Positions 3,191-64,000 of a stretch of DNA of 64,000 nt are shown in pieces. A model generated the notes under the pieces. The model had not been told where the DNA came from, ran no database searches, and was given only the letters and a program-made list of their open reading frames with translations. Both the position numbers and the translations under genes were made by a program. The stretch's first letter is position 1. Each line of letters opens with the position of its first letter. The stretch spans positions 288,780 to 352,779 of the forward strand of contig NC_061062.1 of NCBI RefSeq assembly GCF_021917145.1. Direction: 5' to 3'. The stretch is from Hypomesus transpacificus (taxonomy: Eukaryota; Chordata; Actinopteri; Osmeriformes; Osmeridae).

Positions 3191-3715
3191 AGGGGGCAGG
3201 AGGTTCTGGGCTGCTGTTACAGACTCTGTTCACAACTCTGCAGGCATTCAGCCCTCAGGAAGGTGTTCAGGAAGTGAATATGCTTTCCACCATGCCATCA
3301 TTGTATCTGCCAGCAACTCTGGCATACTGTCTCAAAATGCCTCAGTATGTCTGTGTGTGTCTCCATGTGTCTGTGCGTGTCTCCATGTGTGTATACATCT
3401 CTGATTTCTGTACTACATGTTAAAAGTATCTCCTGTGTGAAACGCGACAACAGAATCAGGTCGAGTGCATCCCAGAACAGGACGGACAGAGATTTCTTCA
3501 CGGCAAACAAAGGCTCCAGGGGTCAAAGGACAGGTTCATGAGTCACATGTTGTTCAAACAGTCCTCCTCCAGAGAGCAAACATGCCTGTTAGCCCAGCAC
3601 GAGGATATTGAACTGTTACCAAACACCAAACTAACCCTAACCCAAACACCAAACTCCCAACAAGCCACTGCTCAGAGACTACAGCCACCGAGATCCACTT
3701 CATATCCAAACAATA
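3191..3715. other. No gene seen
   Basis: About 500 bases with no recognisable gene. A GT/CA-rich stretch at 3345-3400 gives short open frames on both strands, which I treat as chance. Confidence 0.5.
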
Positions 3716-3908
3716 CCATATTTAGGGTTAGGGTTAGTATACAATACCATGTTTAGGGTTAGGGTTAGTATACAATACCATATTTAGGGTTAGGGTTAGT
3801 ATACAATACCATATTTAGGGTTAGGGTTAGTATACAATACCATATTTAGGGTTAGGGTTAGTATACAATACCATATTTAGGGTTAGGGTTAGTATACAAT
3901 ACCATATT
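3716..3908. repeat. Minisatellite carrying telomere-like hexamers, 31-bp unit
   Basis: About six near-identical copies of a 31-bp unit. Each contains TTAGGGTTAGGGTTA, two full vertebrate telomere hexamers plus a partial one, followed by GTATACAATACCATAT. Only one position differs between copies (CATGTT versus CATATT). It is an interstitial telomere-like minisatellite, not a run of pure telomeric repeat. Confidence 0.92.
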
Positions 3909-4122
3909 TCACTCAGGTAAAAAGGTCACTGGCACTCTTTATATTTACAGATCTGTAGAGACGGTTTATCAGTGTTTGAATGTATAAAACGTAGGCCAGC
4001 CAACAGCAGAAGCACTGTGTGACATACAGCGAATCTGAGAACACTGGCCAGGCTACCTGCACATTACTGAAAGCCAAACAATCACATGGTGTAGAGGGGT
4101 GTTTTCTCCTCCTGGCTCTCAC

Positions 4123-25600: not shown

Positions 25601-28145
25601 GCTGAAGGCTCGCTGATATAGCTGTCGGTCTTACTAGAACGGCATATGTATGCATTGTTGCCAACGTGTGCTGACGTTGTGACTGCGTGCAAATGTGAGA
25701 AAGACGCATGAGTGACAGAGAGACGGAGGGAGAACAGGGGAAAGGAAATGCAGCTGAACGAATACGCTGCGTGTTTTAACCTAAATAGCGTTAAAAAATT
25801 TTTTTTAACGAAACGCAATGTGTGGCGGCCGGTGTTGATTCTGTGGCGCACCGCCACAAATAAGTCTGTGTGGGAAACACTGTTAATGATTTTCTATAAC
25901 TTTATTTGAAACTTCGTTGAAAAAGTAAAGGCTGTGGAAGCATAGCATTGTTAAGATGCTCTGGTGTCTGAGGTTTTATATTCCCAAAAATATTATAAAA
26001 GTATTTTTCAAAATGGTATGGGTTGTTTTCACCTGGTCCCTAACACGATGCTGCAAAGTAGTGTCTTCTGAATGATAGACGAATGTCGAATATGAAACTA
26101 ACTTCACCTCGGTCAATTAACACACTGTTTCTATGTATTTAGTGTGACATGCTCCCACACCTTGGATGACTTGGGTCATACTGATTTCTCCTTCTCCGCC
26201 ATGTGTTTCAGAACGACGTTACTCAACAACGTCTCTCCGATGGCCTTTCCTCTACCTTCGCTCCGTGCTCTACTAATTAAAAAAAAAAACTCAAACATCG
26301 CGACATTAAGTGGCGTAATAATCGCTTAACACAACGAATCGATAATTAAATTTGTTGCCAACACTTTGAATAATCGATTTAATCGATTGGTTGTTGCAGC
26401 CCTAATGAAAATGGTTTCAGAATTAAGCGAGTCACAATAGATCTTGTATAAAAAGTATGCATCTCTGAACTTCTTTCATATGTCGACTTGTAGATGTTGG
26501 CCGCTCCAACAGGGTGAGATGCAGTTGAGTGTGGTCTCTGACCTCCTGTGTGGTCTCTGACCTCCTGTGTGGTCTCTGACCTCCTGTGTCCTTCCTTCAG
26601 GGGCCGTGGGATGCCACCTCGTGGAGGGGCCCCTCGCGGAGGAGCCCAGCGCGGAGGAGCGCTACGAGGGGGCCCATCCAGAGGGGGGGCTGCTAGGGGA
26701 GCACCTGCGGGGCGGGGGGGACCCCCCTCATCGTCCTCCCGAGGGGGCTCGGCTCCTCGTTCCAGGCCCCCCACACCGGGGGCTCCTCGGATGCTGCCCC
26801 CTCCAGCCCACGCCCACCAGCAGCACCACCAGCCGCAGCAGCACCACCAGCACCCCCCTCCGCCCAAACCAGAACCCTATGAAGAATATGTATGTCACAT
26901 CTTATATCAAGTGGTTGTGTGTGTATACCGAGACTCACTGTGTATGTGTGTGTGTACCCTGAGACTCAATGTGTGTGTGTACCCTGAGACTCAGTGTGTG
27001 TGTGTGTGTGTGTGTACCCTGAGACTCAGTGTGTGTGTGTGTGCCCTGAGACTCAGTGTGTGTGCGTGTGTGTGTGTGTACCCTGAGACTCAGTGTCTGT
27101 GTGTGCCCTGAGACTCAGTGTGTGTGTGTACCCTGAGACTCACTGTGTGTGTGTGTGTACCCTGAGACTCACTGTGTGTGTGTGTGTACCCTGAGACTCA
27201 CTGTGTGTGTGTGTGCCCTGAGACTCAGTGTGTGTGTGTGCCCTGAGACTCAGTGTGTGTGTGTGCCCTGAGACTCAGTGTGTGTGTGTGCCCTGAGACT
27301 CAGTGTGTGTGCGTGTGTGCCCTGAGACTCAGTGTGTGTGTGTGTGTGTACCCTGAGACTCAGTGTGTGTGTGTGCCCTGAGACTCAGTGTGTGTGTGTG
27401 TGTGTGCCCTGAGACTCAGTGTGTGTGTGTGCCCTGAGACTCAGTGTGTGTGTGTGTGCCCTGAGACTCAGTGTGTGTGCGTGTGTGCCCTGAGACTCAG
27501 TGTGTGTGCGTGTGCCCTGAGACTCAGTGTGTGTGCCCTGAGACTCAATGTGTGTGTGTGTGTACCCTGAGACTCAGTGTGCGTGCCCTGAGACTCAGTG
27601 TGTGTGTGTACCCTGAGACTCAGTGTGTGTGTGTACCCTGAGACTCACTGTGCGTGTGTGCCTTGTCCCCAGCCTGCTTATGAAGAGGCGTACGCTGAGC
27701 CTTCTTACGAGGCGTACGATGCTTACTACAGCCAGCAGGCTCCTCAGGCGTAAGTACACAACCCAGAACGTGCTGAGATCAGTTTGCTGTGCGTGTGCTG
27801 ACAGCTTCCTCTTTGTCCAGGGACACGGAGTACTACGACTACGGACATGGAGAAGCCCAGGAGGCCTGTGAGCCGTACGGTAGGAGGACTAACACTTTGA
27901 CTGATTGAATGATTTGCGCTTCTACTCAGTTTCACGTTAAAAAAACAATGTTACATATAGTTACTAGTTCAGCCACCAAGTAAATTACTAGTTAAGCCAA
28001 GTCATTGCCTGAATATGGAATTGTGTGTGTTTGTGTCTCAGCTCAGGATGACTGGGAGGGCTCCTGGCCCAGCACGGGGGGCAAGGCCCCGCCCCCCAGG
28101 CAGGCTAAAGGAGCTTATCGGGAGCACCCTTACGGCCGCTACTGA
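22674..28145 (+). CDS. khdrbs1: KHDRBS1 (Sam68), STAR-family RNA-binding protein
   Basis: Sam68 is a nuclear KH-domain protein that binds U/A-rich RNA, controls alternative splicing and is a substrate of Src-family kinases (known for the family). Nine coding exons join in phase: 22674-22821, 23333-23460, 23638-23754, 23845-23991, 24098-24225, 26601-26889, 27673-27749, 27821-27879 and 28042-28145, giving 398 residues (human 443). QUA1 starts at [18 protein letters not shown]. The KH domain (about 82-185) has the GPQG loop at about 101-104, followed by QUA2. An RG/RGG and Pro-rich region (about 205-300) and a Tyr-rich tail follow. The C-terminal [12 protein letters not shown] is the family nuclear-localisation signal. 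The long Pro-rich N-terminus of mammalian Sam68 is absent; translation could begin at either of the first two Met codons. Intron 5 contains a hAT-like insertion and intron 6 a TG-rich minisatellite. Confidence 0.95.
25158..25882. mobile_element. Nested element with CAGTGTTTCCCAC termini
   Basis: Inside the larger hAT-like insertion. The left end reads CAGTGTTTCCCACAGATTAG and the right end is the inverse of CAGTGTTTCCCACA. TTGTGGCGG occurs just inside both ends. This terminus is common among non-autonomous fish hAT-like elements. The 8-bp flanks do not match each other, so the target duplication is lost or the ends are misjudged. It contains a 29-base G run. Confidence 0.7.
25217..25245. repeat. 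Poly-G run of 29 bases
   Basis: Uninterrupted G homopolymer within the nested element in KHDRBS1 intron 5. Long G runs can form G-quadruplexes, and they are also places where assembly and base-calling errors are common. Confidence 0.95.
26530..26590. repeat. Short triplicate before KHDRBS1 exon 6
   Basis: Three copies of a 19-20-bp unit (TGTGGTCTCTGACCTCC) sit directly upstream of the exon 6 acceptor at 26600. The acceptor pyrimidine tract follows the last copy. The array supplies C/T-rich sequence next to the splice site. Confidence 0.85.
26890..27665. repeat. TG-rich minisatellite filling KHDRBS1 intron 6
   Basis: About 25 copies of CCTGAGACTCAGTGTGTG with a variable (TG)n tail of 2-10 dinucleotides. 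The array begins within about 50 bp of the exon 6 donor and runs almost to the exon 7 acceptor at 27672, so it makes up nearly the whole intron. Open frames across it are not coding. Confidence 0.92.
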
Positions 28146-47182: not shown

Positions 47183-50100
47183 TCATGGAAGGCTCCGGAG
47201 CAGCTCGTTGAGGCTGGTGTGGATGTTGGCAGGCTGAGCGGCAGCCAGGTCCACCAGGCTGGGCCCCATGTGGGTGTGGAGAGCCAGACACAGGCTGGCA
47301 CTGGCCCCCCGCAGGCCCCCCCGGCCCTGGACGCTCCCGCTACCTCCAGGTGAACCCAGGAGGTGCCAGAGCAGAGGCAGCACTCTCTGCTCCACCATCT
47401 GGGGCCTGCGGGGATACAGCTCTGCCACCAGGTCTGGGCAGGGGGAAATGGGAACAAAGATGCTGAGGTCAAATAGTAGAATACAGGATGCCATTGTGGC
47501 AATAACAGACTGAATGGTGTAAAACAGAGTGGTTGTAAACATACCAGCAACCTTCTCTACAAGATCCACCTTGGCTTTTCCGCTGAGAAACTGGGCCTTG
47601 CTGCAGAGCGGCTGCAGCAGAAGACTAGTGTCTGGTAAACATAGGTCAAACGGGGTTAAAGGTCAAAGCTAGTTCTCCATTCAGGCACAGATGAACCCTG
47701 ACCTTGGTGGAGGAGAGGAACCTACCCAGGTTGAGGGTGAGGGCATGGAGGGCCTCCATGGCAGCGCTGTAGATGGAGCTGTTCCTGGAGTTCAGGTGGT
47801 TGTCCACCACGGCTGGGACCAGCAGGTACACCAGGGGGCCCAGGTGCTCCTTCATCAGGGACGAGATCCTGGGTAGAGCCTCCAGAGCATGCAGACACAC
47901 CTTACTGTTGGACTCCTGTAGGCGAGCCTTGAAGGCATCAAACACCTGGTGGGGAGGGAGGGAGGGTGGGATGGAGAGATGGAGGGGTGGAAGAAGGGAA
48001 GGGTATAAGAAAAGAGAGAGGGACTATGCTTGGCCACAGTGAGCTTCAGTTTATACTTGAGTCCTGGTAATAGTCCCTAAACAACATGCAGGCAGGCAGG
48101 CCTGGTGGAGGAGCATACTGGGAACATGCTGCTGATGACCAGGGTGGGGTTATGCTCGCAGTCGGACACCAGCTGGTTGATGCCCTTGATGCGTTCTCTG
48201 AAGTCCTTGGAAGCCATCAGAGCAGAGATGTTCTTCACGTACTCCATCTTATCTGCTACACTCTGGACCTGGCCTCTCCCGCTGGACTGGCAGTCCCTGA
48301 AGGGTAAGGGGGAGGGTTAGGGGCCCCACAGGGTGAGGGGCCCTGCATGGGCCCCAGAGATGAGACAACAGATCAAGACAACAGAGAGCAGGGGGACAGG
48401 GCGGAGGGCAGGGTTGGGGTTTTCCTACCGTGTGAGCAGGGGTTCCCTGGTGAGAGACGAGGCTCTGACCGTCCCACTGCCCGGTAGCGAGCGCCGGCCC
48501 CTGGCTGAGGGCGTGTCCTGGGGCATCTCTCCCAGACCCTGCACAGACCACAACACCCAGATAACTCCTCCATGCCTGGAAACCACCTCTCTATTCCTCC
48601 TTATAGTGATACGACCATCTCCAAAACCCAGCAGTAACATCCAGGTATCAATATGACTAGGTGCGCAGCCTGGCCCTCCTTACCTTGGTCTTGAGAGTGA
48701 ACACGGTGTCTCTAACAGCAGCCAAGTCCTTGGCAGGGATGTGTTTCTCCAGCATCTTGTCAAAGTCTCGGTGCGACGACAGGAACAGCAGCATCCGCCG
48801 GCCGTAGAACCTGAACACAGCATGCCAGAGACTAAACACAGCATGCCACACAGGCAACATGAACCTGATCACAGCATGCCACACAGGCAACATGCCAGAG
48901 ACGAGCATGTCAGCACTGGTTTTGAGTAGCTTCCTCTCCTCCTCCCCCGCCCCCTCACCTCCATCGCCCCCTCACCTCCCCCGTCCCCTCACCTAGCCTC
49001 CTGAGAGGAGTCCTGGGCCAGCCTGGTGATGGCTGGGAGGACCCGCTCGGTGAGGGACTCGCTCGGCTTCCCTCCAGACAGGATGCGTGTGGCCCCCATC
49101 TTCTCCACCAGACTGGTCAGGTGACGGGCGGTGCGGTTCCTCACCACGCCACTCAGGTGCCTGCAGGTCAGAACATCTGTTAGGGAAGAACAGCTCACAC
49201 AGTCCAGCCCCCTCACACACACACACACACACACCTCACTACAGGTGTTCTCTCTCATCACTCAGCAGGGCTTGATTGAGCTCGCCTGGTGTACTGGAGA
49301 TGATGCATTAAGCCCAACAATACAAATCCTGTCATTGCCAGAAGCCACATCAGGAAGTCTATTGTCTAGTGACAGTGGTTACTGTAACACTGACATGGAG
49401 TTCATGATTGTTGATGGAGTGTGTTCAAATAAACACTGGCCTGTGTGTGTGTGTGTGTGTGAGGTACATACATGGTGTGGTAGCTCTGTGTGTGTGTGTG
49501 TGTGTGTGGTCCTGACCCCAGCCCCCCAGCGATCAGGGCGCAGGTACAGCGTGCGGGGGTGCAGTGCTGCACCATGCTGTCCAGGGCAGCGTCCACGTCC
49601 TGCCTGATGAAGGCGTTACTCTCCCCGGCCTTCAGCAGCAGCGCCCGGGCCAGCCCCTCCAGCTCCTGGTCCATGCCCCGCTGCAGCTGACACAACAGCT
49701 CCCCCACCGCGCCCACCGCCACCCTGGACACCCCTGAACGCAGGTTCTTCACCTGGGGGGGAGGAGGAGAGCAGTATTCACAACATCAGGCCTGGGTTAG
49801 GAGGCTCGTTCAGGCCCCTGGGGGGAAGCTAGGGGACAGGGATCTACTGGGGAACATTCTCTTCATGAGCAGAAATCAGGACATAACCACAGGAGTGTGA
49901 GGAGCACTGGAGAACAGACAGGAAGTGGGGTCGTACTTCCTGGATGAGGGCCACACAGACGTCGTGGAGATGCCCCAGCAGCACGCCAGGATGGAACAGT
50001 GCCAGGCTCCTCACCATGGCCACACCCTCAATCTTCTTCTCCCTGTTACAAGACATCAACACATGGATATGAAGGATCCAGCCATCCTGATCTCTCTGCT

Positions 50101-53100
50101 GACTGGTGCAGGGTGTCTCTGCTGACTGCTGCAGGGTGTGTCTCTGTGCTGACTGGTGCAGGCTGTGTCTCTGCTGACTGGTGCAGGCTGTGTCTCTGCT
50201 GACTGGTGCAGGCTGTGTCTCTGTGCTGACTGGTGCAGGCTGTGTCTCTGTGCTGACTGGTGCAGGCTGTGTCTCTGTGCTGACTGGTGCAGTGTCTCTG
50301 TGCTGACTGGTGCAGGCTGTGTCTCTGTACTGACTGGTGCAGGCTGTGTCTCTGCTGACTGGTGCAGTGTGTCTCTGTGCTGACTGGTGCAGTGTGTCTC
50401 TGTGCTGACTGGTGCAGTGTGTCTCTGTGCTGACTGGTGCAGGCTGTGTCTCTGCTGACTGGTGCAGTGTGTCTCTGTGCTGACTGGTGCAGGCTGTGTC
50501 TCTGCTGACTGGTGCAGGCTGTGTCTCTGCTGACTGGTGCAGTGTGTCTCTGTGCTGACTGGTGCAGGCTGTGTCTGTGCTGACTGGTGCAGGCTGTGTC
50601 TCTGTGCTGACTGGTGCAGTGTGTCTCTGTGCTGACTGGTGCAGAGTGTGTGTCTCTGTGCTGACTGGTGCAGGGTGTGTGTCTCTGTGCTGACTGGTGC
50701 AGTGTGTCTCTGCTGACTGGTGCAGGCTGTGTCTCTGCTGACTGGTGCAGGCTGTATCTCACCAGTCCTCCAGGTTCAGCAGTCTGAAGCTCTGGGCCAG
50801 AGCCTGCTCAGGCTTGGAGAAGGGACGTGGCTGCTGAACTGCATCTCTCTTCTGCCCCAAGCTGCCTGCAGAGAGCTCGTCTGGAGACGTCATACACACA
50901 CACACACACACACACACCTCTATTAGTTAAGTGAAAATAAAAAGCTAGAAAATACAGAAAGCTGTTTATGTGTGGGTGGAGGCGAATTAAACCCACGCTG
51001 TCATAACAGGAGAGACGCAGATTAGCCCTGGAGAATACCTCATTTAACCAGGCTCCGCTGGCTGTAATGGACTAATGACTGAAGCCGAGTGCTTTAAAAA
51101 CAGCCTGTCTGGTCTATTCTATTCAAACTGCAGGGCAGCATGGTTAGACTTAAGAGAAACAGGGAGGGTGAGTAGAGGGTGGAGGAGGGAGAGAGGGTGG
51201 AAGAAGGGGTGGAGGAGGGAGATGGTAGCTCTACTGACCAGAGCTGTGTGACAGAGAGGGGCGTGTAGTGCTGAGGCTGGGGCCTCTTCTCAGGCGAGGC
51301 AGGGCTCGGGGGTTAGGTGGTGCCTCGGGGGGGCTGGGCTTGAGGGGGGGGCTCTGGGACCCCCGGGGGCTGGTGGGGGGGGAATCAGGGGACGAATCTG
51401 TCTGGATGGGGGCCAGCGTTTCATCGTTCAGCTGCAGATCTATGGAGACAGGAAGGTTACTGCTGGGGAGACGAGCACACTGCTGGCCAGAGAACACCAG
51501 GAGGCACCAGGCTGAGATGGTACCTGTGCTTAGGGCTGAGTCCAGGGCCTCCGTGGCCCCTGGCTGGGCCTGAGGCAGGGCATCCCTGGAGGCCCCCGTC
51601 TTCTCCTGAACAGTAAAACACACACAGACCAGAACAGTCTACTCAGACTGAGCCCTGTACAAACACTAGCTGATGAGGACTGTGTGACGTGCAAGGCCTG
51701 AGGGGATGTTTCAGAGAGGATGTTCCTCTGGCTGACCTTGGTGTCCTCTGTGTCTAGGTGACTCCCAGACACCACCAGGCCATGCATCCCATCGTGAGGC
51801 ACCCCAACAGGGAGCTGGCCAGGGAGCCGGTCTCCCTGCGCTGCTGTCACAGCCACAGCTGGCTGGCTGCCGCCTGAAGGCCCAAACACACCTGGGGACG
51901 AGACACAGACACGGCTAGCCCAACACTCTCACTCCCCTAGCCAGCAGGCCTGGTGATCTGTCCTGGATGGGTGCTGTGTGTTGACACAAGGCCACAGTGT
52001 TATCTGAGCACTGGTCCACACTCTGACATGACCATGTCTTTACTCAGCCAGGTCATGGGTGGTTAAACCAGAGCAAAGTGACCAGAGCACTGTGACCAGA
52101 ACACAGTGACCAGAGCACAGTGACCAGAACACAGTGACCAGAGCACAGTGACCAGAACACAGTGACCAGAGCACAGTGACCAGAGCACAGTGACCAGAAC
52201 ACAGTCACCAGAGCACAGTGACCAGAGCACAGTGACCAGAACACAGTGACCAGAGCACAGTGACCAGAACACAGTGACCAGAGCACAGTGACCAGAGCAC
52301 AGTGACCAGAGGACAGTGACCAGAACACAGGGCAGCATGGATCCCAGCACAGAGACACCCTGTTGAGGAGCGCTCCTAACTGAGCAGCAGGAACTAACCT
52401 CGACCCACCACACCTTCACACATGTCAGAAGCAGGGGACGTTCTGGAGCTGAAGCTCTGGGAACCTGAGGAAGAACAACTGCAGGTGAACGAGGAAGCAG
52501 AGTCCATCTGAGAGAAAGACACACACAAAGAGAGAGAGAGACAGAGAAAGAGACAGAGAGACACACAGAAAGAAGGACAGGGAAAACTCAATGAAAACTG
52601 CAGTTCTGAGGGTGCAGACTCACCTTTGGCTGGCCGCAAAGCTCTGATTGGCTCTCTGCCGGTGGGTCTGTGAGGAGGGGGGGAGGGCTCTTCTCCTGAG
52701 TATGGAACTCTCTGACCAATCACACTGACCGCAGCTGAGACTCTATCTTGGGGTGGCAAGGCTGCAACAACAGCAGGACTGAGTGGCCCTGAGCACGTAC
52801 CAGGGTCAAACCTTGTCCAACCACAGTGGTCAGACTCACACATTTACATTTAGTCATTTAGCAGACGCTCTTATCCAGAGCAACTTACAGTGAGTACAGG
52901 GACATTCTCCCCAAGGCAAGTAGGGTGAAGTGCCTTGCCCAAGGACACAACATCATTTGGCATGGCCGGGAATCGAACCAACAACATTCTGATTAATAGC
53001 CCGACTCCCTAACCGCTCAGCCATCTGACACAGTACTTTACACTGGAAGTGTGTACAAGTGTACCTTGAAGGCAGCTGAAGTCCATTGACACGGAAGACC

Positions 53101-56100
53101 TCAGTTTTGCAGAAGGCACTCTGGCCATGCGCGGCTTGGAGGAGGCAGAGTTCCCAGGGCTGGGGAGATGGGAGGGAGAATGAGCCTCCTGCTTCTCTCT
53201 CAGGGAGAGCCCAAGTACTCTCTAGCCAAGTGACTCGAGCTTTATTAGTCATGACACCATCTTAGCATGAATTTGTGGAAAAGTACAAACCACCCCCCAG
53301 ATAAAAACACCCCCCACTGTCACAAGATGATTATAACTTGAACTCTTGAGAAAAGATCCGATGTGGTTGAAGCGGGCGTGTGGGTGACCGACCTGGTCCT
53401 GCTGCCTCCGAGGCTGGAGAGGGGCGGTGAGTAGAGGCTGGAGAGACTACTCTCGCTGGCGGGGCTGGCCCCTGTGGGGGAGGCCCGGGGCGGGGACTCC
53501 ACTCCCAGGTCCAGCCTCATGGCCGAGTCAGGGCTGTCTGGGTCAGAGCTGCTCACGCTCACCTTGGCCCGCTTCTTAGCTGCGCTGCAGCGCAGGGAGC
53601 GTAATGAGTTCAGCATCTGAAACACATCCACATGAGACAGAAGAGTCAGGGTAGAAAGAGACACTGAGGGAGAGACAGAGGGAGAGAAGGGGGGGGGGGG
53701 AGAGAGAAAGAGGGAGGCCCTGCATGTGGGGGCACTGTATCAACAACATCACTAATGGCAGCTGGATCTAAGGATGTTTTAAATGTGGAATCAGAACAGT
53801 CCTGACCTCCTGTCTGTCCAGGGACTCATCCTCTGGCTCCTGCAGGCCCAGCTGGGACAGCTCCTGCAGCAGGCTTCTCTCCTGCTGGCCCCCCGGGGGA
53901 GGGTGGGGAATCTGGCCGTTCTGGGGCTGGAGCGGGTCTCTCTGGGGCTGGAGCAGGTCTCTCTGGGGCTGGAGCGGGTCTCTCTGGGGCTGGAGTGGGT
54001 CTCTCTGGGGCTGGAGTGGGTCTCTCTGGGGCTGGAGCGGGTCTCTCTGGGGCTGGAGCAGGTCTCTCTGGGGCTGGAGGGGGTCTCTCTGGGGCTGGAG
54101 TGGGTCTCTCTGGGGCTGGAGTGGGTCTCTCTGGGGCTGGAGTGGGTCTCTTTGGGGCTGGAGTGGGTCTCTTTGGGGCTGGAGGGGGTCTCTCTGGGGC
54201 TGGAGTGGGTCTCTGAGGGGCTGGAGTGGGTCTCTGAGGGGCTGGAGTGGGTCTCTGAGGGGCTGGAGTGGGTCTCTCTGGGGCTGGAGTGGGTCTCTGA
54301 GGGGCTGGAGTGGGTCTCTCTGGGGCTGGAGTGGGTCTCTTTGGGGCTGGAGCAGGTCTCTCTGGGGCTGGAGTGGGTCTCTTTGGGGCTGGAGGGGGTC
54401 TCTGAGGGGCTGGAGTGGGTCTCTCTGGGGCTGGAGCAGGTCTCTGAGGGGCTGGAGTGGGTCTCTGAGGGGCTGGAGTGGGTCTCTGAGGGGCTGGAGG
54501 GGGTCTCTTTGGGGCTGGAGTGGGTCTCTGAGGGGCTGGAGTGGGTCTCTGAGGGGCTGGAGTGGGTCTCTGAGGGGCTGGAGTGGGTCTCTGAGGGGCT
54601 GGAGTGGGTCTCTTTGGGGCTGGAGTGGGTCTCTTTGGGGCTGGAGTGGGTCTCTCTGGGGCTGGAGTGGGTCTCTGAGGGCGGGGCTGGCTGGAGTCAC
54701 AGGCAGAGCAAGCCGTGTGCTGCTGAGTGCCCGGCGGAAGCAGGAAGTGCTGGAAGAGGAGCTCACCAGAGACGCACGCAGCGGGCAGGGAGAGCTGCTG
54801 GAGCTGGCTTCAGCTGGAACACATGCACAGGTTCAGCACACACACACACACACCTCCTCACACATACACACCTCCTCAGAGCGCTAGGCTAGCGGGCCGA
54901 GGGCCCATGCTAACCTGAGGAGTGTGTCCACGAGCTGGGCTCTCTGCAGAGCGGGCTACTGTCCCTCTTGTTAGGCCAGGTGTTGGACATGGACACAGAG
55001 GACTCCACCCTGCGGGGCGGGGTGGGGGAGGAGCCCCCTGCGGTGAGGTACGCCAGCGGGTAGCAGGGCAGCAAGAAGGAGCCCTGGGCAGGGGGGTTGG
55101 AGGGCAGCGAGAAGGTTCGCTCCACACTAGGGTTTCCCGACAGGAGACGGCCTCTGGTGGCCACTACAACACAACAGCAGTCACCTTCACAAGCTCCATC
55201 AAGATGCACAGAAGCAGGTGTGTTTGAAGTGGGTTTAAACCCAGTCACACCCTCATACTAAGCCTCCAACACAGGTCATTCCCATGTTAGTTACATGTTC
55301 TAACTGGACTACTCACCTCCATCTGTGGCAGAGAAGTTTGTAGATTTAAAAATGTCCGTATCAGAATCCAAGCTTCCACTCCTCCTCAGTCTGGTCACCG
55401 GCTCTCGTCTCCTGGAGGACGGGGGCTCTGCAGAACCTGAACACACCACACCTCCTGAACACCTCCTGCACACCTCCTGAACACCTCCTGAACACCCCAC
55501 ACCTTCTGAACACCTCCTGCACACCTCCTGAACACCCCACACCTCCTGAACACCTCCTGAACAACTCCTGAACACCTCCTGAACACCTCCTGAACACCTC
55601 CTGCACACCTCCTGAACACCTCCTGAACACCCCACACCTTCTGAACACCTCCTGCACACCTCCTGAACACCCCACACCTCCTGAACACCTCCTGCACACC
55701 TCCTGAACACCTCCTGAACACCTCCTGAACACCTCCTGCACACCTCCTGAACACCTCCTGAACACCTCCTGCACACCTCCTGAACACCTCCTGAACACCT
55801 CCTGCACACCTCCTGAACACCTCCTGAACACCTCCTGAACAACTCCTGAACACCCCACACTTCCTGAACACCTCCTGAACACCTCCTGCACACCTCCTGA
55901 ACACCTCCTGAACACCCCACACCTCCTGCACACCTCCTGAACACCCCACACCTCCTGAACACCTCCTGAACACCTCCTGAACACCCCACACCTCCTGAAC
56001 ACCTCCTGAACACCTCCTGAACACCCCACACCTCCTGCACACCTCCTGAACACCCCACACCTCCTGAACACCTCCTGAACACCTCCTGAACACCCCACAC

Positions 56101-59100
56101 CTCCTGCACACCTCCTGAACACCCCACACCTCCTGAACACCTCCTGAACACCTCCTGAACACCCCACACCTTCTGAACACCTCCTGAACACCCCACACCT
56201 CCTGAACACCTCCTGAACACCCCACACCTCCTGAACACCTCTGCACACCTCCTGCACACCTCCTGAACACCCCACACCTCCTGAACACCTCCTGAACACC
56301 TCCTGAACACCTCCCGAACACCTCCTGAACACCTCCTGCACAGCTTGGCTGACCACCCGCAGTGGACTTGGTAACAGTCATACGTCCCATTAGGCTGACT
56401 GAACACACAGGTCAGGCTGGTTAACCTGATATAAGACGTTTACTGTAAGCTACTCCAAGTTTGCTGACAATTGTTCTGGTCTAGATACCTTTGACAAGTT
56501 TCCATTTACAAATCAGAGTTCAATCACAAGGGAAAATTAGAATTTGTGTACAACTTGTGCAGCCGTTTTTTGTTCGTACTGGGGAGTAAACTTATCTGGC
56601 AAATTCTACAGGCTGCTGTCGCGAAAAAACAAGAAAAAACAAGTCAAGTTCAGTCTTGCCTTATCTTGCATGGGGGGAGGGGGGGGGGGGGTTCCTCATA
56701 CTCAGTTTGTGCATGGTTGCTACTTTACATGATTCAACAAAGCAGCCCACCTTGTTACCATGACTACTATAGTAGCATTAAACTATTAATACACCTGTTA
56801 AAATAAAATTGTTACAGAGACTATTAGCGTGGGACTAAAAAGGCAGCAGGCCAGAGAGAGGCAGCAGGCCAAAGAGAGAGGCAGCAGGCCAGAGAGAGGC
56901 AGCAGGCCAGAGAGAGAGGCAGCAGGCCAGAGAGAGAGAGGCAGCAGCTCATCTGGAGTCTGTGCGTGCAGAGCAGTAGCATGGCTTGACAGAGGCATGC
57001 TAATCCAATTCAGCAGATCTTATTTAGCACCTGGCTAACTCGATGGTTTGTGTGCTCCTGATGCATCCATGTAAAGAGCAGAGAGAGGAGGGTCACCTAC
57101 CAAAGCTGGGAACATAAGTCTCTGGGCTCAGCTTTCTGGTCAGGGACAGCCCATCTTCACGGATGACCTGAGAGGGGAGAGGAGGTCACGGCAGGATGAT
57201 TAGCATCTTAGAATACAAAAAGAAAAGGTTGAGTTCAAATGACAAAACGTGACCAACAGGAGAACTGAGGAAGAGTTTAATATGGATCTACTGAGGTAGT
57301 TTCAGCAGGATTCTATCATACTCAGGTAGTTTCAGCAGGATTTTATCATACTCAGGTAGTTTCAGCAGGATTCTATCATACTCAGGAAGTTTCAGCAGGA
57401 TTCTATCATATTCAGGTAGTTTTAGTAGGATTCTATCATACTCAGGTAGTTTTAGTAGGATTCTATCATATTCAGGTAGTTTTAGCAGGATTCTATCATA
57501 TTCAGGTAGTTTTAGTAGGATTCTATCATACTCAGGTAGTTTTAGCAGGATTCTATCATACTCAGGTAGTTTTAGTAGGATTCTATCATACTCAGGTAGT
57601 TTTAGTAGGATTCTATCATACTCAGGTAGTTTTCTACCAGCGTAGGCAGACACACCTCAGGCAGGTGCAGCCTACATGTTTTCCTGTAAAAATGTAACCA
57701 TGGCACCAATGCACTGTACAATCAATAAGTGACAAACATCTTTCCAACCCTCAGTTTCTCTGGCAGCTTCCATTGTGATACACCAGGGGTTGTAATCAAC
57801 ACAAGAGCATTAAATAGTTCCAATCGTTTCCAGCTGTATTAGGCCTTATGATGTGATCTGTTCTCCGATTATGTTTCACGCCCTCAGAGTACAAGTGTGT
57901 GGACGTGGGGTTGCTGGGATACAGGGCACTGGTGTAAACAGAACCATTCACTAGAAGATTCATACACTCTTTTACATACGCACCTTTTATTGTGTTCCTC
58001 CTAAACATGTTGCATTGCTTATTTCCTGGGAGATTAATCAAATATGCCTCCTCCATGAACAGCTGTGTTTGAAGTCAGACTTTTTATTCTAAGGTCTTAA
58101 GGGTAGAGAATTAGTATTATTACTTAATTACATCTGGGCACCTGAAGGTTTGCGCTGATTGATAATCCCCAACATGAGTTAGGAAATGTTTAACTAATGG
58201 GGGCTTGGTTAACGAGCTTTCCATCAAACGAAGCCCAAATGATTCTTACAAATGTGACAAGCCTGCTAGTTTCAAACCTTCTGCAATCGGGACACTGACG
58301 ACTCCTGGTTGTGGAACAACAAATCAATGGAAAGACACAGTCCTTGATGTGGTATACTAGGTGAATTCAAAGTCAATAGGATACATTTTCAGACCACAAG
58401 CCAAGTCAATCAGTGACTGACAAAGCGTTGATAGTTGCTTCATACTTGCATTTCAAAGTCAACTAAAGGGCAAAATCTGCATTAGCTTCCTGAGGCTGTG
58501 GCTCTTCTCTATCTGTGCCCTCCTATATGAAGCATTACAACAGGGGCAGTTTAGGCACGGGCCGACCGGGCAGCCGCCCGGGGCGCCACCAAGTCAGGGG
58601 CGGCAATTTAAGCCGAGAGGGGCAGTTTTTTCTGCAATTTGTGTTTTTGGCCCTCTGCCCTCGCCCTCTGCTGGCCCCAAAAAAGTTTTGCGATTCTGTT
58701 TGTGCCATTCGTTTCAGGCGGCCGGCGGGGTAGGGGGTTTAAGTGAAAAACTCGCCAAGGGGCACCAAAAGTGCTAGGACCACCACTGCATTAAAACACA
58801 AACATTCAATCAAAAATAAGTGACTCATAGGACATTTCTTCGCATCTCAATCACATGCTTTCTGTTATAAAATAGGCTTCTTATTAGGAAACTTAAATAC
58901 TTCCTGTTTGGCAACTAGAAATACTCGTGGATGACCCACCTGCTCCTCGTTCGTCTGGAGGCCCCGGGCTGGCTGGGCGTCCTCTGAGTAGGGGAGACTC
59001 GACCTCTCCCAGGGCAGCTTGTTCTTCCCCTTCCCAGCGCTGACGATCCTCCTCTGCAGGGGCAGGTCGTCTGTGAGGGAGCCCAGGCTCCCGTAGCCAC

Positions 59101-59965
59101 ACAGCCTGTCAGGGTCTGGCTGCTGTCGGGCACTGCGGGCACTGCCTCCCCGCCCTCCGCTCAGCACCCACTCCAGGTCTGCCCCCGAGCCGCACTGCTG
59201 GGACCGTCGTCCAGACCTGGGGACCACAAGGCCGTATTCTACCATCCCTTCAGAGGACAGCTTGGGAAGCAGGTGTCTGGCCCTTCTGGCATGTACAGCG
59301 GCCATGAGGCCCTCCACGTCTCCACTGAGCTCAACTCTGTCCACAGCCTTTATCAGGGGCTGCTTTTTCCCTGGGTCAAGGCAACAGTCAAAAACAGCAA
59401 ACAGCTCGAGGGCTGCATGACGGACCTTCATCTTACTGTCAGCCAGGGAAGGTGCAACTTCAAGACAAAGACTGGGGATATTGAACTCCTTTCTGGGGTG
59501 GGTGAGCATAGCAGCCGTGATGATATTGATGACATCTTCTCTGACTCTGGAGTTCTTATGCCTCAAGTGTCCCAGAACAAGGTCCAACACTTTTTGTGGT
59601 CCAACACTTCTCATCAACTGGAGAAATACATTCATGTACTCATTCCTGGTGACAGTGCGAGTATCTCCAAGGGTTTTCAGTGCCGCACAAGCTATATGCT
59701 TGGAATACTTTTCTACATTGTAATCCAATTTCTTGATAAGAAGGTTTATGACCTGTAAAGTCCCATACAAGACTTTAAAGTTGCTGTCGTCCAGTAGTCT
59801 GCGGAGGAAATTGATAAACTCTATAATATTGTCCGAGGGGATTTGCTTCAGGTCCAAGTCCAAGAGAATATGTTTCAGCTCTTCCACCCCATTTGTTCGA
59901 TTCTGATAGTTTTTTGAGTCCAGGAGCTGTTTGTGTAGCTCCTGGGGTAATAATCCAAATATCAT
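47183..59965 (-). CDS. togaram1: TOGARAM1 (crescerin/FAM179B), ciliary microtubule regulator
   Basis: A TOG-domain protein that binds tubulin and regulates axonemal microtubules and cilium length (known; a Joubert-syndrome gene in humans). Twenty-two coding exons keep phase, 1676 residues: 58940-59965, 57101-57167, 55317-55436, 54915-55163, 53807-54813, 53393-53616, 53065-53159, 52624-52761, 52399-52464, 51737-51891, 51524-51605, 51239-51439, 50763-50880, 49937-50042, 49517-49752, 48993-49160, 48684-48810, 48429-48538, 48119-48296, 47726-47945, 47545-47631, 47183-47433. Residues 1-230 form the TOG that starts FGLLPQELHKQLLD (human TOG2); no TOG1 was found upstream. The linker has SAAKKRAKVSVSSSDPDSPD. 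C-terminal TOGs span about 1165-1395 and 1435-1676. Exon 5 contains 36 in-frame heptapeptides RDPLQP(Q/L), residues about 534-785. The first ATG in frame is at 59965. Confidence 0.93.
50060..50755. repeat. Minisatellite in TOGARAM1 intron 13
   Basis: About 27 copies of TGCTGACTGGTGCAG followed by GCTGTGTCTC- or TGTGTCTC-type linkers, so the period varies from 22 to 30 bp. It ends a few bases before the exon 13 donor at 50762. The 238-residue minus-strand open frame here reflects the repeat. Confidence 0.93.
52068..52335. repeat. Minisatellite, 14-bp unit, TOGARAM1 intron 9
   Basis: About 18-19 copies of ACCAGAGCACAGTG and the variant ACCAGAACACAGTG, arranged as near-alternating pairs (a 28-bp higher-order unit). 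Non-coding. Confidence 0.93.
52844..53031 (-). mobile_element. tRNA-derived SINE, TOGARAM1 intron 7
   Basis: The same family as 21443-21609 and the same orientation. The tail CATTTAGCAGACGCTCTTAT is at its left end. The B-box-like GGTTCGATTCCC (minus strand) and a degraded A-box region are at its right end. Inserted in the same transcriptional direction as TOGARAM1. Confidence 0.8.
53921..54676 (-). repeat. togaram1: Translated minisatellite, 21-bp unit, in TOGARAM1 exon 5
   Basis: Thirty-six complete 21-bp units with no interruption, encoding the heptad RDPLQPQ. Variants are RDPLQPL and RDLLQPQ. The exon is open from acceptor to donor, its length (1007 nt) restores the phase of both neighbouring exons, and the sequence after the array (LLQELSQLGLQEPEDESLDR) matches the conserved TOGARAM1 segment that precedes exon 6. 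The array is therefore translated unless it is spliced out. Confidence 0.92.
55440..56345. repeat. Minisatellite, 11-12-bp units, TOGARAM1 intron 2
   Basis: More than 70 copies of ACACCTCCTGA or its relatives (ACACCTCCTGC, ACACCCCACACC), about 900 bp. It starts about four bases from the exon 3 acceptor (55436/55437), so on the minus strand the array runs straight into the splice acceptor. Three overlapping minus-strand open frames of over 330 residues result from the repeat only. Confidence 0.95.
56840..56950. repeat. Short purine-rich repeat
   Basis: Five to six copies of GGCAGCAGGCCAGAGAGA with variable GA length, in TOGARAM1 intron 2. Confidence 0.85.
57290..57635. repeat. Minisatellite, 30-bp unit, TOGARAM1 intron 1
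   Basis: About 11-12 copies of a 30-bp unit with TCAGGTAGTTTTAGCAGGAT, then TCTATCATAC. The period is a multiple of three and the minus strand lacks stops, so it can be read as a decapeptide LPEYDRILLK repeated 11 times. It lies about 120 bp from exon 2 in the sense direction of TOGARAM1. I treat it as intronic because no acceptor/donor pair that keeps the frame was found. Confidence 0.9.
58541..58788. mobile_element. Small hAT-like element, TOGARAM1 intron 1
   Basis: The insertion is 248 bp, GC-rich, and has imperfect inverted ends (CAGGGGCAGTTTAGGCAC versus the inverse of GTGCTAGGACCACCACTG). The flanks CATTACAA (58533-58540) and CATTAAAA (58789-58796) match at 7 of 8 bases, consistent with a hAT target duplication. 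No coding sequence. Confidence 0.8.
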
Positions 59966-62962
59966 TATTGATTGTTCTTGGGATGTGGTCAAAATCGAGA
60001 AATAAAAAATGAAATCCCATTTCTATGAGGGTATTGCTCGTTGCTTAGGCTTCTCATCTTCTATTGGTGGACAGAGGATGCTTTCAAGCACGTTCTATAC
60101 ACTCGATTTGACTGTCACTGCTGGAAAATCAGCACGCAAGAAACCTGGAAGTCTCCTTTAAACGCATTAAACAAGGCTTTGTATATATTCTTCGATTCTT
60201 GGCATAAGTGAATGGCGCTCTGCTCACCACCTGAAAGTGTTGAAACAGAAAATAACCATTCGTCATCTTGAACATGCATTGTCTCAATACAATATATAGC
60301 TATTCAGATTATACAGCTGCAATAAAAACCGTACTGTGGTTTAGATAGGTCTAGGGGGAAATAACTGCAACCAAACTGCGCAATCTGTAAAACACTTGTA
60401 GCTCGCGTCCCTGTACATACCGAAAAAGCAGCGTCATTGGAATGAAGATCAAGCTACCCACAGTATATGTTTAAGTTAGCTCGCTAGCAGTAGGTCAAAC
60501 ATCTTCTATAATTATTCCAAATTGACACGATCACGACAGTGCCAATATAGATGAGTTGTCATAAAACCTGATTGTAACACAACAAACTATGAGCCATCTA
60601 TGCAATGTTATACGGATCCCAGATATCACCATTCGTAATCTAGCTAGACCGCTAGTCTATTGCTAACGTAATAGAAGATACGATACTTACAGTAGCTAAC
60701 CAACAACACACGCAACAAGAAGTTAGTTAAAGGACAAATCAGCATAAGGACATTTCTCAAGTGTGATTTTCATGATCTGAAGAGATTACCTTGTTCAGTG
60801 CTCTGTGATATGTCGCATGTTTTTTACGACATAAACCTTTAGAAATTCACATCTGTTATATTGAGTGATTGCAAGCGAGTCCTTATCCGTCCAGTAGGTT
60901 GCTAACTGGCTTGCTGGAGACTTCTTGCTGCTATAGCTATACTGCAAGTGGCGTCAAAATGGCGAATACATGTCACAAACGGACTGCTTCCATGGTGACG
61001 CGAATAATAGACATGGTAGCAGGAAAAGTTGATGGTAAACACATGAAAAGAGATTGTATAAATATTTTTGGAATTAATTATACAATGTTATTTCTTGGTG
61101 AACAATAATTACAATGACACACAAAAAAAACACAAAAGAATGAAGCCTAAAACTTTTCGTAAAAGTTACCGAAGCAGCCTACGTTTAAGAAGTTTGTGTT
61201 CACTTGTCACACCAGCTTTAGACCAGCAGTTTACATGTAATTGTTTTACGCTCTCCTCCTCTCCTCTTCCTCTTTTCACTATGTGAAAAAAAAGTTGTAA
61301 AATTGTGAGAAAAAAATTACACGGTTTGGAAAAATAAGTTTTGAAAGGTTGAATAAATAAATGAAAATAGTGTACTTTTTGGTCGTGTTGTGAACGGAGC
61401 CCCCGACGGGACCTGTGAATGTTTTTTAAAGACACTTTCTCGTCTGCACGAGAAACATTCACGTCAGCAAGCGCTGCAGTTTCCGATTAAAAAAGGAACG
61501 TGCCACATGCATGAAACTTACTCTGGTTACTCCTAGTTATATAGTTTGCAGCATTGATGAGGGCAATACTATGCTCTACTGTCCTCAATTGTACTTTGCT
61601 CTCTATTACTCTGTTTTATGCTTCTCTGTTCTCCTCTCCCTTCTCCACCCTCTCCTTACACTGTGTGTGTGGAAAATAACGTTTCGAAAAAATAAAAAAG
61701 TTTCTAAAGGTTGAACAAATATTTTAGAAAAAGTTTGACAACGTTTTTAAAGGTTGAAAATGTATTTTATTTAAAAAGTTTTGCAAAAATACGTTCTCTC
61801 CTTTTACTGTGCGTGTGGATTTTTTTTTCAAAGGTTGAATACATATTTTTGAAAATAAATTGTAATAAAAATTTTTTTTCTCAAAAATAATCTCAATCTG
61901 AAACACAATGTATGAACCATAGAGTTAGGTATGAACGTCCGTGTTTAAATGGTTAATAGCCTAACCCCGCCCCGGAAGTTGCGCGTTCTCTGTTTTGCTG
62001 TTTGTTTTCTTGACAGCCGCTCGGGTTCTGCTGCTGGGCTGAACTTGGCCGCTGCTAAAACCCATCTTCAGAGCGGCACATCGGACGCGCAAGACAGGTC
62101 TGTACATTTCTTTATCTGCATATTTTCTTGGATTGTCGGTAGTTTACTCACGTATGCCTATCCATGGCGATATTTATAGCTGAATGTAATTCTATAAGGT
62201 ATATCTGTCGCTTATTGTGTTTATTTTTAGCAAATTGAACTGGCTCCATTCTGCAGCAGTACTAGTAATGCACTAGGTTACTACAATACATTAGAAAGCT
62301 AACCTACCTAGCAAACATGTCCTTGTAATGCAATTTCTTGTTCGGGGCCTGTAGCAAAGCTAGCTAGCTAGCTAACGAAACCTTCGTCAAGAGGTACTAT
62401 AACGTTTTGCATTTCAGAATGTAAATGTGGAATTAAAAGGTGTGGTTTATGCCGAATAACAAATGTCGTTAGCAAGGCTAGCTAGCTAGGTAATATTAAG
62501 TAGCTTGCTAGTAACATAGTAGACTAGCTAGCTACACAACGTCAGCATTCTACTAGTTATCTAGGCTTTCGTTTGGGTTCACCAGTTAATTTCTACGTAA
62601 AAACGATTTAAGAAATCTACATAACCTTAATAATTTGTAATACACCGTTCTAGTTAGGTAGATACTTAGCTACACACTAGCATGTAACGTCGTTATTTAG
62701 CTAGAGCTACGTTAGCTATCAAAACGAGGCAGCTATGGCTGTTAAGGAGCTGTGTGGTTGCAGATGGTATGCTACCAATAACATGATGAGCCTACTTGTT
62801 ACAAACCTACAAACTATACAACTTTACTTCAGACAGTAGTTAAGTTGCCGTTATATGCCTAGGTGTTGTCTGAAAGTCTTCGAAACAAGCTTACAACTTA
62901 CATCATCTGGTTGTGCATTCTTGGATGGCGGTACACCCCTTAACTCGCCTTAACGTTTTCAG
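59966..62962. promoter_or_regulatory. Head-to-head intergenic region, TOGARAM1 and KLHL28
   Basis: Three kilobases between the two divergent start codons, an arrangement also seen in human 14q21. On the right, a KLHL28 5' untranslated exon probably ends at 62097 (AAGACAG|GTCTGT) in a locally GC-rich patch (about 61965-62097). On the left, an acceptor-like CCCAAG at about 59975 may begin the first coding exon of TOGARAM1. No TOG1-encoding exon was seen. The middle (61080-61900) is very AT-rich. Confidence 0.5.
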
Positions 62963-63984
62963 ATGGACCCGCAGGCTCAGTCCTACATGCTCGCGAGCCT
63001 GACGCGGCCCCACTCCGAACAGCTGCTGCAGGGCCTCCAGCTGCTGCGACAGGACCATGAGCTGTGTGACATTGTGCTGCGCGTGGGCGACGCCAAGATC
63101 CATGCCCACAAAGTGGTGCTGGCCAGCATCAGCCCCTACTTCAAGGCCATGTTCACAGGCAACCTGTCCGAGAAGGAGACCTCCGAAGTGGAGTTTCAGT
63201 GCATTGACGAGGCTGCGCTACAGGTATGGGATGCTAGCAGAGAAATCTTTGTGGTATGTTATGTTTGTGTTGTTGGCTGATCTATGAATCAGATGTAATC
63301 CACAAGCTAAGACACACATGCAAAGCCCCTTCTCTTTCTCCCATAGGCCATAGTGGAGTATGCCTACACTGGGACAGTGTTTATCTCCCAGGAGACAGTA
63401 GAGTCCCTGTTGCCAGCTGCCAACCTGCTCCAGGTCAAGCTGGTGCTGAAGGAGTGCTGCTCCTTCCTAGAAAGCCAGCTGGACGCTGGGAACTGTATCG
63501 GCATCTCCCGCTTTGCAGAGACCTACGGCTGCCATGACCTGTGCCTGGCAGCAACCAAATTCATCTGCCAGAATTTTGAGGAGGTATGCCAGACTGAGGA
63601 GTTTTTTGAGCTGACCAGAGCAGAACTGGATGAAATAGTGTCGAACGACTGTCTGAAGGTGGTGACAGAGGAGACTGTGTTTTACGCCCTCGAGTCGTGG
63701 ATCAAGTATGACGTGACTGAGCGGCAGCAGTACCTGGCTCAGCTGCTGCACTGTGTGCGTCTCCCTCTGCTCAGCGTCAAGTTCCTCACCCGCCTTTATG
63801 AGGCTAACCACCTCATCCGTGATGACCACGCGTGCAAGCACCTGCTCAACGAGGCCCTCAAATACCATTTCATGCCTGAACACCGTCTATCCTACCAGAC
63901 TGTGCTGTCCACTCAGCCGCGCTGCGCCCCCAAAGTGCTCCTTGCCGTAGGAGGCAAGGCTGGACTCTTCGCCACGTTGGAGAG
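62963..63984 (+). CDS. klhl28: KLHL28, BTB-BACK-Kelch protein, N-terminal part
   Basis: Kelch-like proteins bring substrates to CUL3 ubiquitin ligases: BTB and BACK bind the cullin, Kelch repeats bind the target (known for the family). Two coding exons, 62963-63223 and 63347-63984, encode the first 299 residues plus two bases; the remaining exons lie beyond the right edge. The start codon directly follows the acceptor (TTTTCAG|ATG). The BTB domain (about 35-130) has HELCDIVLRVGDAKIHAHKV and SPYFKAMFTGNLSEKETSEV. BACK (about 140-240) has SRFAETYGC and EETVFYALESWIKYDV. The first Kelch repeat begins around VLLAVGGKAGLFATL and is cut by a donor (GAGAG|GTATTT). It reads almost residue-for-residue like vertebrate KLHL28, and its head-to-head neighbour is TOGARAM1 as in human. 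Confidence 0.95.
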
Positions 63985-64000
63985 GTATTTAAAATGATCT

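Follow-up and report, generated by a model that had tools for sequence, protein, structure and literature searches.

A 64,000-nucleotide stretch of the Hypomesus transpacificus genome (positions 288,780 to 352,779 of contig NC_061062.1), referred to here as the window, carries on its minus strand a gene that sequence comparison identifies as TOGARAM1, with a long minisatellite in the linker between the second and third TOG domains (TOG2 and TOG3). TOGARAM1, a protein of the cilium tip, has been linked to Joubert syndrome. PDB chain 5dn7_A, 'Protein FAM179B', matches the open frame at 58865-60022 (minus strand) with E=2.3e-80; FAM179B is an older name of TOGARAM1. This match scores 273.6 bits, where the next chain, a CLASP, has 42.4; a TOGARAM2 chain is absent among the chains listed. 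Pfam also places a TOG domain here (PF21041, E=2.2e-11). The TOG2 exon was assigned to 59006..59962 from these two matches and tblastn, and runs to LPWE; its 3' limit is approximate.

All comparisons with human TOGARAM1 used an approximate reference sequence. In tblastn, this reference aligns to a collinear series of blocks on the minus strand that spans 59959 to 47198, the linker blocks, TOG3 and TOG4 following TOG2 in the human order. The TOG3 and TOG4 exon blocks lie at 47186..50893, and linker blocks flank the array on either side (55092-54967, E=0.007; 53631-53437, E=2.5e-12). The only match to the TOG2 exon in the species' own genome (437 Mb, 376 contigs) is the present locus. A partial gene model has a positive-score donor for seven of its 13 pieces within the offsets searched. 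Gene, strand, frame and position between TOG2 and TOG3 agree with a preliminary description of the locus, and are backed by the 5dn7_A match, the collinear blocks, the exon phases and the flanks of the array.

No exons were mapped by tblastn for residues ~663-807 of the human reference. Upstream of 59962 there is no tblastn block for reference residues before 348, which is where TOG1 was sought; PF21041 has no match upstream of the TOG2 exon either, but the profile may be too general, or the exons too short. No TOG1 is seen between the TOG2 exon and the next gene (59962-62954); it may have been lost, have diverged or have been split into short exons in H. transpacificus. The next gene, at 62954-63997 on the plus strand, has BTB and BACK domains (Pfam) and is arranged head to head with TOGARAM1; it is probably KLHL28.

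The array and its exon

The array occupies 53921..54676 on the minus strand. It measures 756 bp, or exactly 36 abutting units of 21 bp with no indels, at the coordinates given previously; TRF reports 53920-54676, with period 21, 36.0 copies, 93% matches, 0% indels and a score of 1192. Unit parsing in the TOGARAM1 frame gives RDPLQPQ or RDPLQPL for 32 of the 36 units. The preliminary description had listed only this RDPLQP(Q/L) pattern; the other four units read RDLLQPQ. All variation between units falls in four of the 21 columns (8, 9, 20 and 21), leaving 17 invariant. The predicted 252-residue product comprises 68 P, 60 Q, 52 L, 36 R and 36 D, and contains no S, T or Y. It had been described as charged; charged residues are indeed present, but the 36 R and 36 D give a net charge of zero.

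Variants had also been said to occur in blocks, and this has moderate support. Like neighbours number 25 in the Q/L column, where shuffled orders average 19.0 and attain 25 in 220 of 10,000 cases; for full unit types the figures are 10, 6.3 and 670 of 10,000. There is no clear lag indicating higher-order structure within the array, and no string of more than three units recurs. Singleton variants are absent from the 756 bp, where 5.5 would be expected from eight other arrays. Selection was considered as a cause and rejected, since the measure cannot be separated from the age and copy number of an array; singletons are missing from one of the eight comparison arrays too, so their absence may reflect youth and not constraint.

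The array is contained in a predicted exon of 1007 nt (53807..54813, minus strand), delimited by the acceptor TTCCAG/CTGAAG and the donor GAG/GTCAGG and supported by phases, splice sites and flanks. This exon would encode 46 linker residues before the array and 38 after it. The preceding linker exon, of which the 3' part was placed at 54916..55098 (minus strand; tblastn E=0.007), ends in the donor CAG/GTTAGC (TCA G/GTTAGC), with 54915 as last exon base. The next linker exon (53344..53616, minus strand; tblastn E=2.5e-12; 3' limit approximate) begins MLNSLRSLRCSAAKKRAK after the acceptor TTTCAG/ATG at 53616. The introns on the two sides measure 101 nt and 190 nt, and phases agree with both neighbours; length and phase of the exon match as first stated, and skipping it leads to a stop after 14 codons. 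Donor scores given here come from an approximate human matrix. Within the conserved linker exon 53616-53344 there is a strong donor-like AAG/GTGAGC at 53562 (score 7.07).

Origin in a minisatellite-rich window

The window contains 20 arrays (period of at least 7, TRF score of at least 150), which together make up 11.4% of it. On other contigs, ten 10-kb stretches taken at 310-320 kb contain 25 arrays (8.0%) and ten at 6 Mb contain 10 (2.5%); these stretches are few and very uneven, and three of the ten at 310-320 kb contain N. Enrichment of arrays near contig ends is possible. TOGARAM1 itself has arrays with units of 11, 14, 25 and 30 bp between its mapped blocks. The simplest account is that the 21-bp array is one of the many minisatellites of the window, born in an exon and with a period divisible by three.

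Several of the other arrays have features of their own. A 25-bp array of 26 copies (50093-50762) starts two bases from the GT of a TOG3-exon donor (CTG/GTGAGA, 50762), which places an intronic array right against one of the splice sites of TOGARAM1. The 11-bp array at 55448-56342 (about 87 copies), between mapped TOGARAM1 blocks, has minus-strand open frames of 338-376 aa and illustrates how long a frame can be in a repeat presumed to be non-coding. The 30-bp array at 57289-57633 (11.5 copies), with the TOG2 exon on one side and the next mapped linker exon on the other, has a unit divisible by three; its minus frame reads LPEYDRILLK, with a stop right after the array, and the array is unlikely to be coding. 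Elsewhere in the window, a 31-bp array (3710-3909) has a unit containing the telomere-like TTAGGGTTAGGG, and an RGG- and proline-rich frame at 26542-27111, which resembles a KHDRBS1-type exon, lies beside a minisatellite at 26916-27660.

The probable origin is the birth of an ordinary GC-rich minisatellite within the togaram1 exon for the poorly conserved, disordered TOG2-TOG3 linker, followed by growth to 36 units through gain and loss of whole units. A minisatellite could be tolerated in an exon because 21 is divisible by three, and since the unit also lacks a stop in the gene's frame, changes in copy number would keep that frame. The 5' flank of the array ends GCCCTC before AGAGACC, like the junction that follows units of the CTC type; this resemblance hints at native exon sequence as the seed of the repeat.

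The G-rich strand of the array (plus strand, the TOGARAM1 template; 53921..54676) has 14 non-overlapping matches to the G4 consensus in a pattern search. Of 15 arrays examined, no other contains any, although the rest of the window has a further 25 (12 on the plus strand and 13 on the minus strand); only 42 of 2000 sets of shuffled units gave a match. The array has 68 G-tracts, and the loops between them are 7 nt (59 of 67), 17 nt (4) or 5 nt (4) long. In yeast, it was short G4 loops that drove minisatellite instability (PMC5491262). Short-loop motifs of the unstable CEB1/CEB25 kind were not found in the array, and its long loops disfavour strong instability. Expansion driven by G4 structures was accordingly demoted and survives only as a weak idea.

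Translation of the array and the role of the insert

The array is open in all three frames of the coding strand, and in five of six overall. Openness as proof of coding was rejected: six of 13 other arrays, presumed non-coding, also have at least one frame that is open from end to end, and with shuffled units two or three frames of the coding strand stayed open in all 5000 cases. Absence of indels is likewise common to several other arrays of the window. Openness of the frame being uninformative, the case for coding rests on phase and flanks.

In the RDPLQP frame, the 46 upstream residues resemble the collinear human reference sequence, with only 8 of 2000 shuffles reaching the score (3 of 2000 in a repeat). 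The 38 downstream residues are less distinctive in a free local alignment (225 of 2000), but when anchored at the exon end their score is reached by only 15 of 5000 and, separately, 8 of 2000 shuffles; the exon end is also the best position when this flank is slid along the whole human reference protein. The other two frames are unlike the human reference (1349 and 1642 of 2000 shuffles reach their upstream scores, 301 and 156 of 2000 their downstream ones), and both carry stops in the flanks of the array. Conserved TOGARAM1 sequence had been said to resume directly after the array; the 38 residues there are weakly similar to human, but conservation is clear only from 53616 (E=2.5e-12). Without the array, the stretch amounts to 109 residues against 122 in the human reference linker, which argues that the array is an insertion. 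With filters off, tblastn also paired the human linker, which is of low complexity, with a different frame of the array (ETHSSPR; best E=0.026), so composition alone can give weak matches. On phase and flanks, the main mRNA probably keeps the 1007-nt exon whole, and the protein would gain 252 residues.

In human TOGARAM1, according to PMC12170345, the linker interacts with CEP104 and increases affinity for microtubules, ARMC9 is bound by TOG2, and rescue comes from TOG3-TOG4; the same source ties microtubule recruitment to positively charged disordered regions. If translated, (RDPLQPQ/L)36 would be a passive, net-neutral, proline-rich disordered spacer. It would lengthen the tether between the N-terminal TOG part, to which ARMC9 binding belongs in human, and the C-terminal TOG3-TOG4 part with its rescue activity. 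A longer spacer might alter the reach between the TOG pairs; reach may however matter little, since human TOGARAM1 retains rescue when TOG1-TOG2 are deleted (PMC12170345). Most likely the spacer is tolerated and not needed. AlphaFold2 on the exon alone gives a mean pLDDT of 43.8, with low confidence throughout, which is compatible with disorder, a single-sequence fold being weak evidence. We infer that the array is kept in mRNA and protein, is disordered in cells and tolerated, and varies in copy number.

Translation had been considered the simplest reading. It is still the best one by phase and flanks, but the preliminary description overlooked a donor-like site in the exon, CTG/GTGAGC (54759..54768, minus strand; GT at 54766), from which the array could be spliced out in frame. 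Acting as an exitron or an alternative 5' splice site, it would have as its splice partner either a CAG of the array at a codon boundary or the 53616 acceptor; most mature mRNA would then lack all or part of the array, which would be effectively intronic. Such a bypass is possible because the site falls between two codons, after 47 nt of the exon, where joins to codon-boundary acceptors keep the frame, and because the coding strand of the array has 65 CAG and no GT. With the human matrix the site reaches 5.13, where the exon's own donor has 2.36 and that of the previous exon 3.32, and only 11 of 887 GTs in the region score as high. Comparable scores do, however, occur within clearly coding TOGARAM1 exons, at 53562 (7.07), 47900 (5.51) and 50014 (5.04); the exon's own GTCAGG donor fits at 53806, and GTCAGG may serve other exons too (49516, 47702). 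Moreover, bypass would remove residues on both sides of the array that resemble the human linker in the RDPLQP frame only. We regard it as unlikely. Far less likely still is an assembly artefact, in which the array would be absent, collapsed or expanded, or its true length would break the frame. Tandem repeats do cause assembly errors (PMC6868369), but this one consists of 36 units of mixed types without an indel, and elsewhere the assembly has weak matches to it only (the best-scoring at 72% identity; the highest identity, 80%, over ~63 query bases). An incorrect number of units alone would leave the frame unchanged. No second haplotype or locus copy of another length was found in the one assembly searched.

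A more active role for the insert can also be envisaged, in which copy number varies within the species and sets tether length or valency of TOGARAM1 under selection. Each 7-residue unit gained or lost would change the tether and the number of weak docking sites, and hence produce heritable variation in cilium length or dynamics. The gain or loss of whole units would preserve the frame, and like units are moderately clustered. The exon product has 31 loose matches to PxxPx[KR], an SH3-type pattern, and it is speculated that the array acts as a multivalent proline-rich ligand; the usual hydrophobic positions are, however, missing from the loose motif. In Atlantic cod, heterozygosity is frequent among tandem repeats in coding sequence (12%; PMC5241972), which fits variable copy number. 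Against a selected role stands the dispensability of human TOG1-TOG2 for rescue (PMC12170345), and we consider this proposal improbable; a tolerated, translated spacer is preferred.

Comparison with known repeats

If translated, the array is of the exonic VNTR type. This is an already known class in vertebrates, reviewed in PMC12776774, with MUC7 as one example (PMC4997351); the TOGARAM1 example would be new. As in such VNTRs, the array lies in a predicted coding exon and has a proline-rich product, a unit length divisible by three and a frame free of stops (36 x 21 bp), although openness alone is uninformative. It differs from mucins of the MUC7 type in that its host is an intracellular ciliary microtubule regulator and its units lack S and T. 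Atlantic cod is another fish whose genome has many tandem repeats, some of them coding; PMC5241972 describes such coding repeats as frequent, with 17,800 coding regions in 7,372 genes, but its counts span unit sizes of 1-50 bp and most units are short. Like CEB1 and CEB25 (PMC5491262, PMC2673046), the array is a GC-rich minisatellite with a G4 consensus on its G-rich strand, but 59 of its 67 loops are 7 nt long, whereas short loops drove instability in yeast (PMC5491262). Human TOGARAM1 likewise has a long linker between TOG pairs (PMC12170345), and the flanks of the array resemble it; the 252-residue insertion is absent from the human reference sequence used here. In the open-licence literature, judged by title and start of abstract, no such array is reported for TOGARAM1, and a search of that literature found no fam179b minisatellite and no coding repeats serving as disordered linkers.

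Should the array prove to be spliced out, the locus would be a case of an exon that retains a large minisatellite through bypass. If the array is translated, as preferred here, the linker of a Joubert-linked ciliary-tip protein tolerates an insertion of 252 residues. The array would then be a simple length marker for population typing, and the species would offer a natural experiment on the importance of linker length between the TOG pairs.
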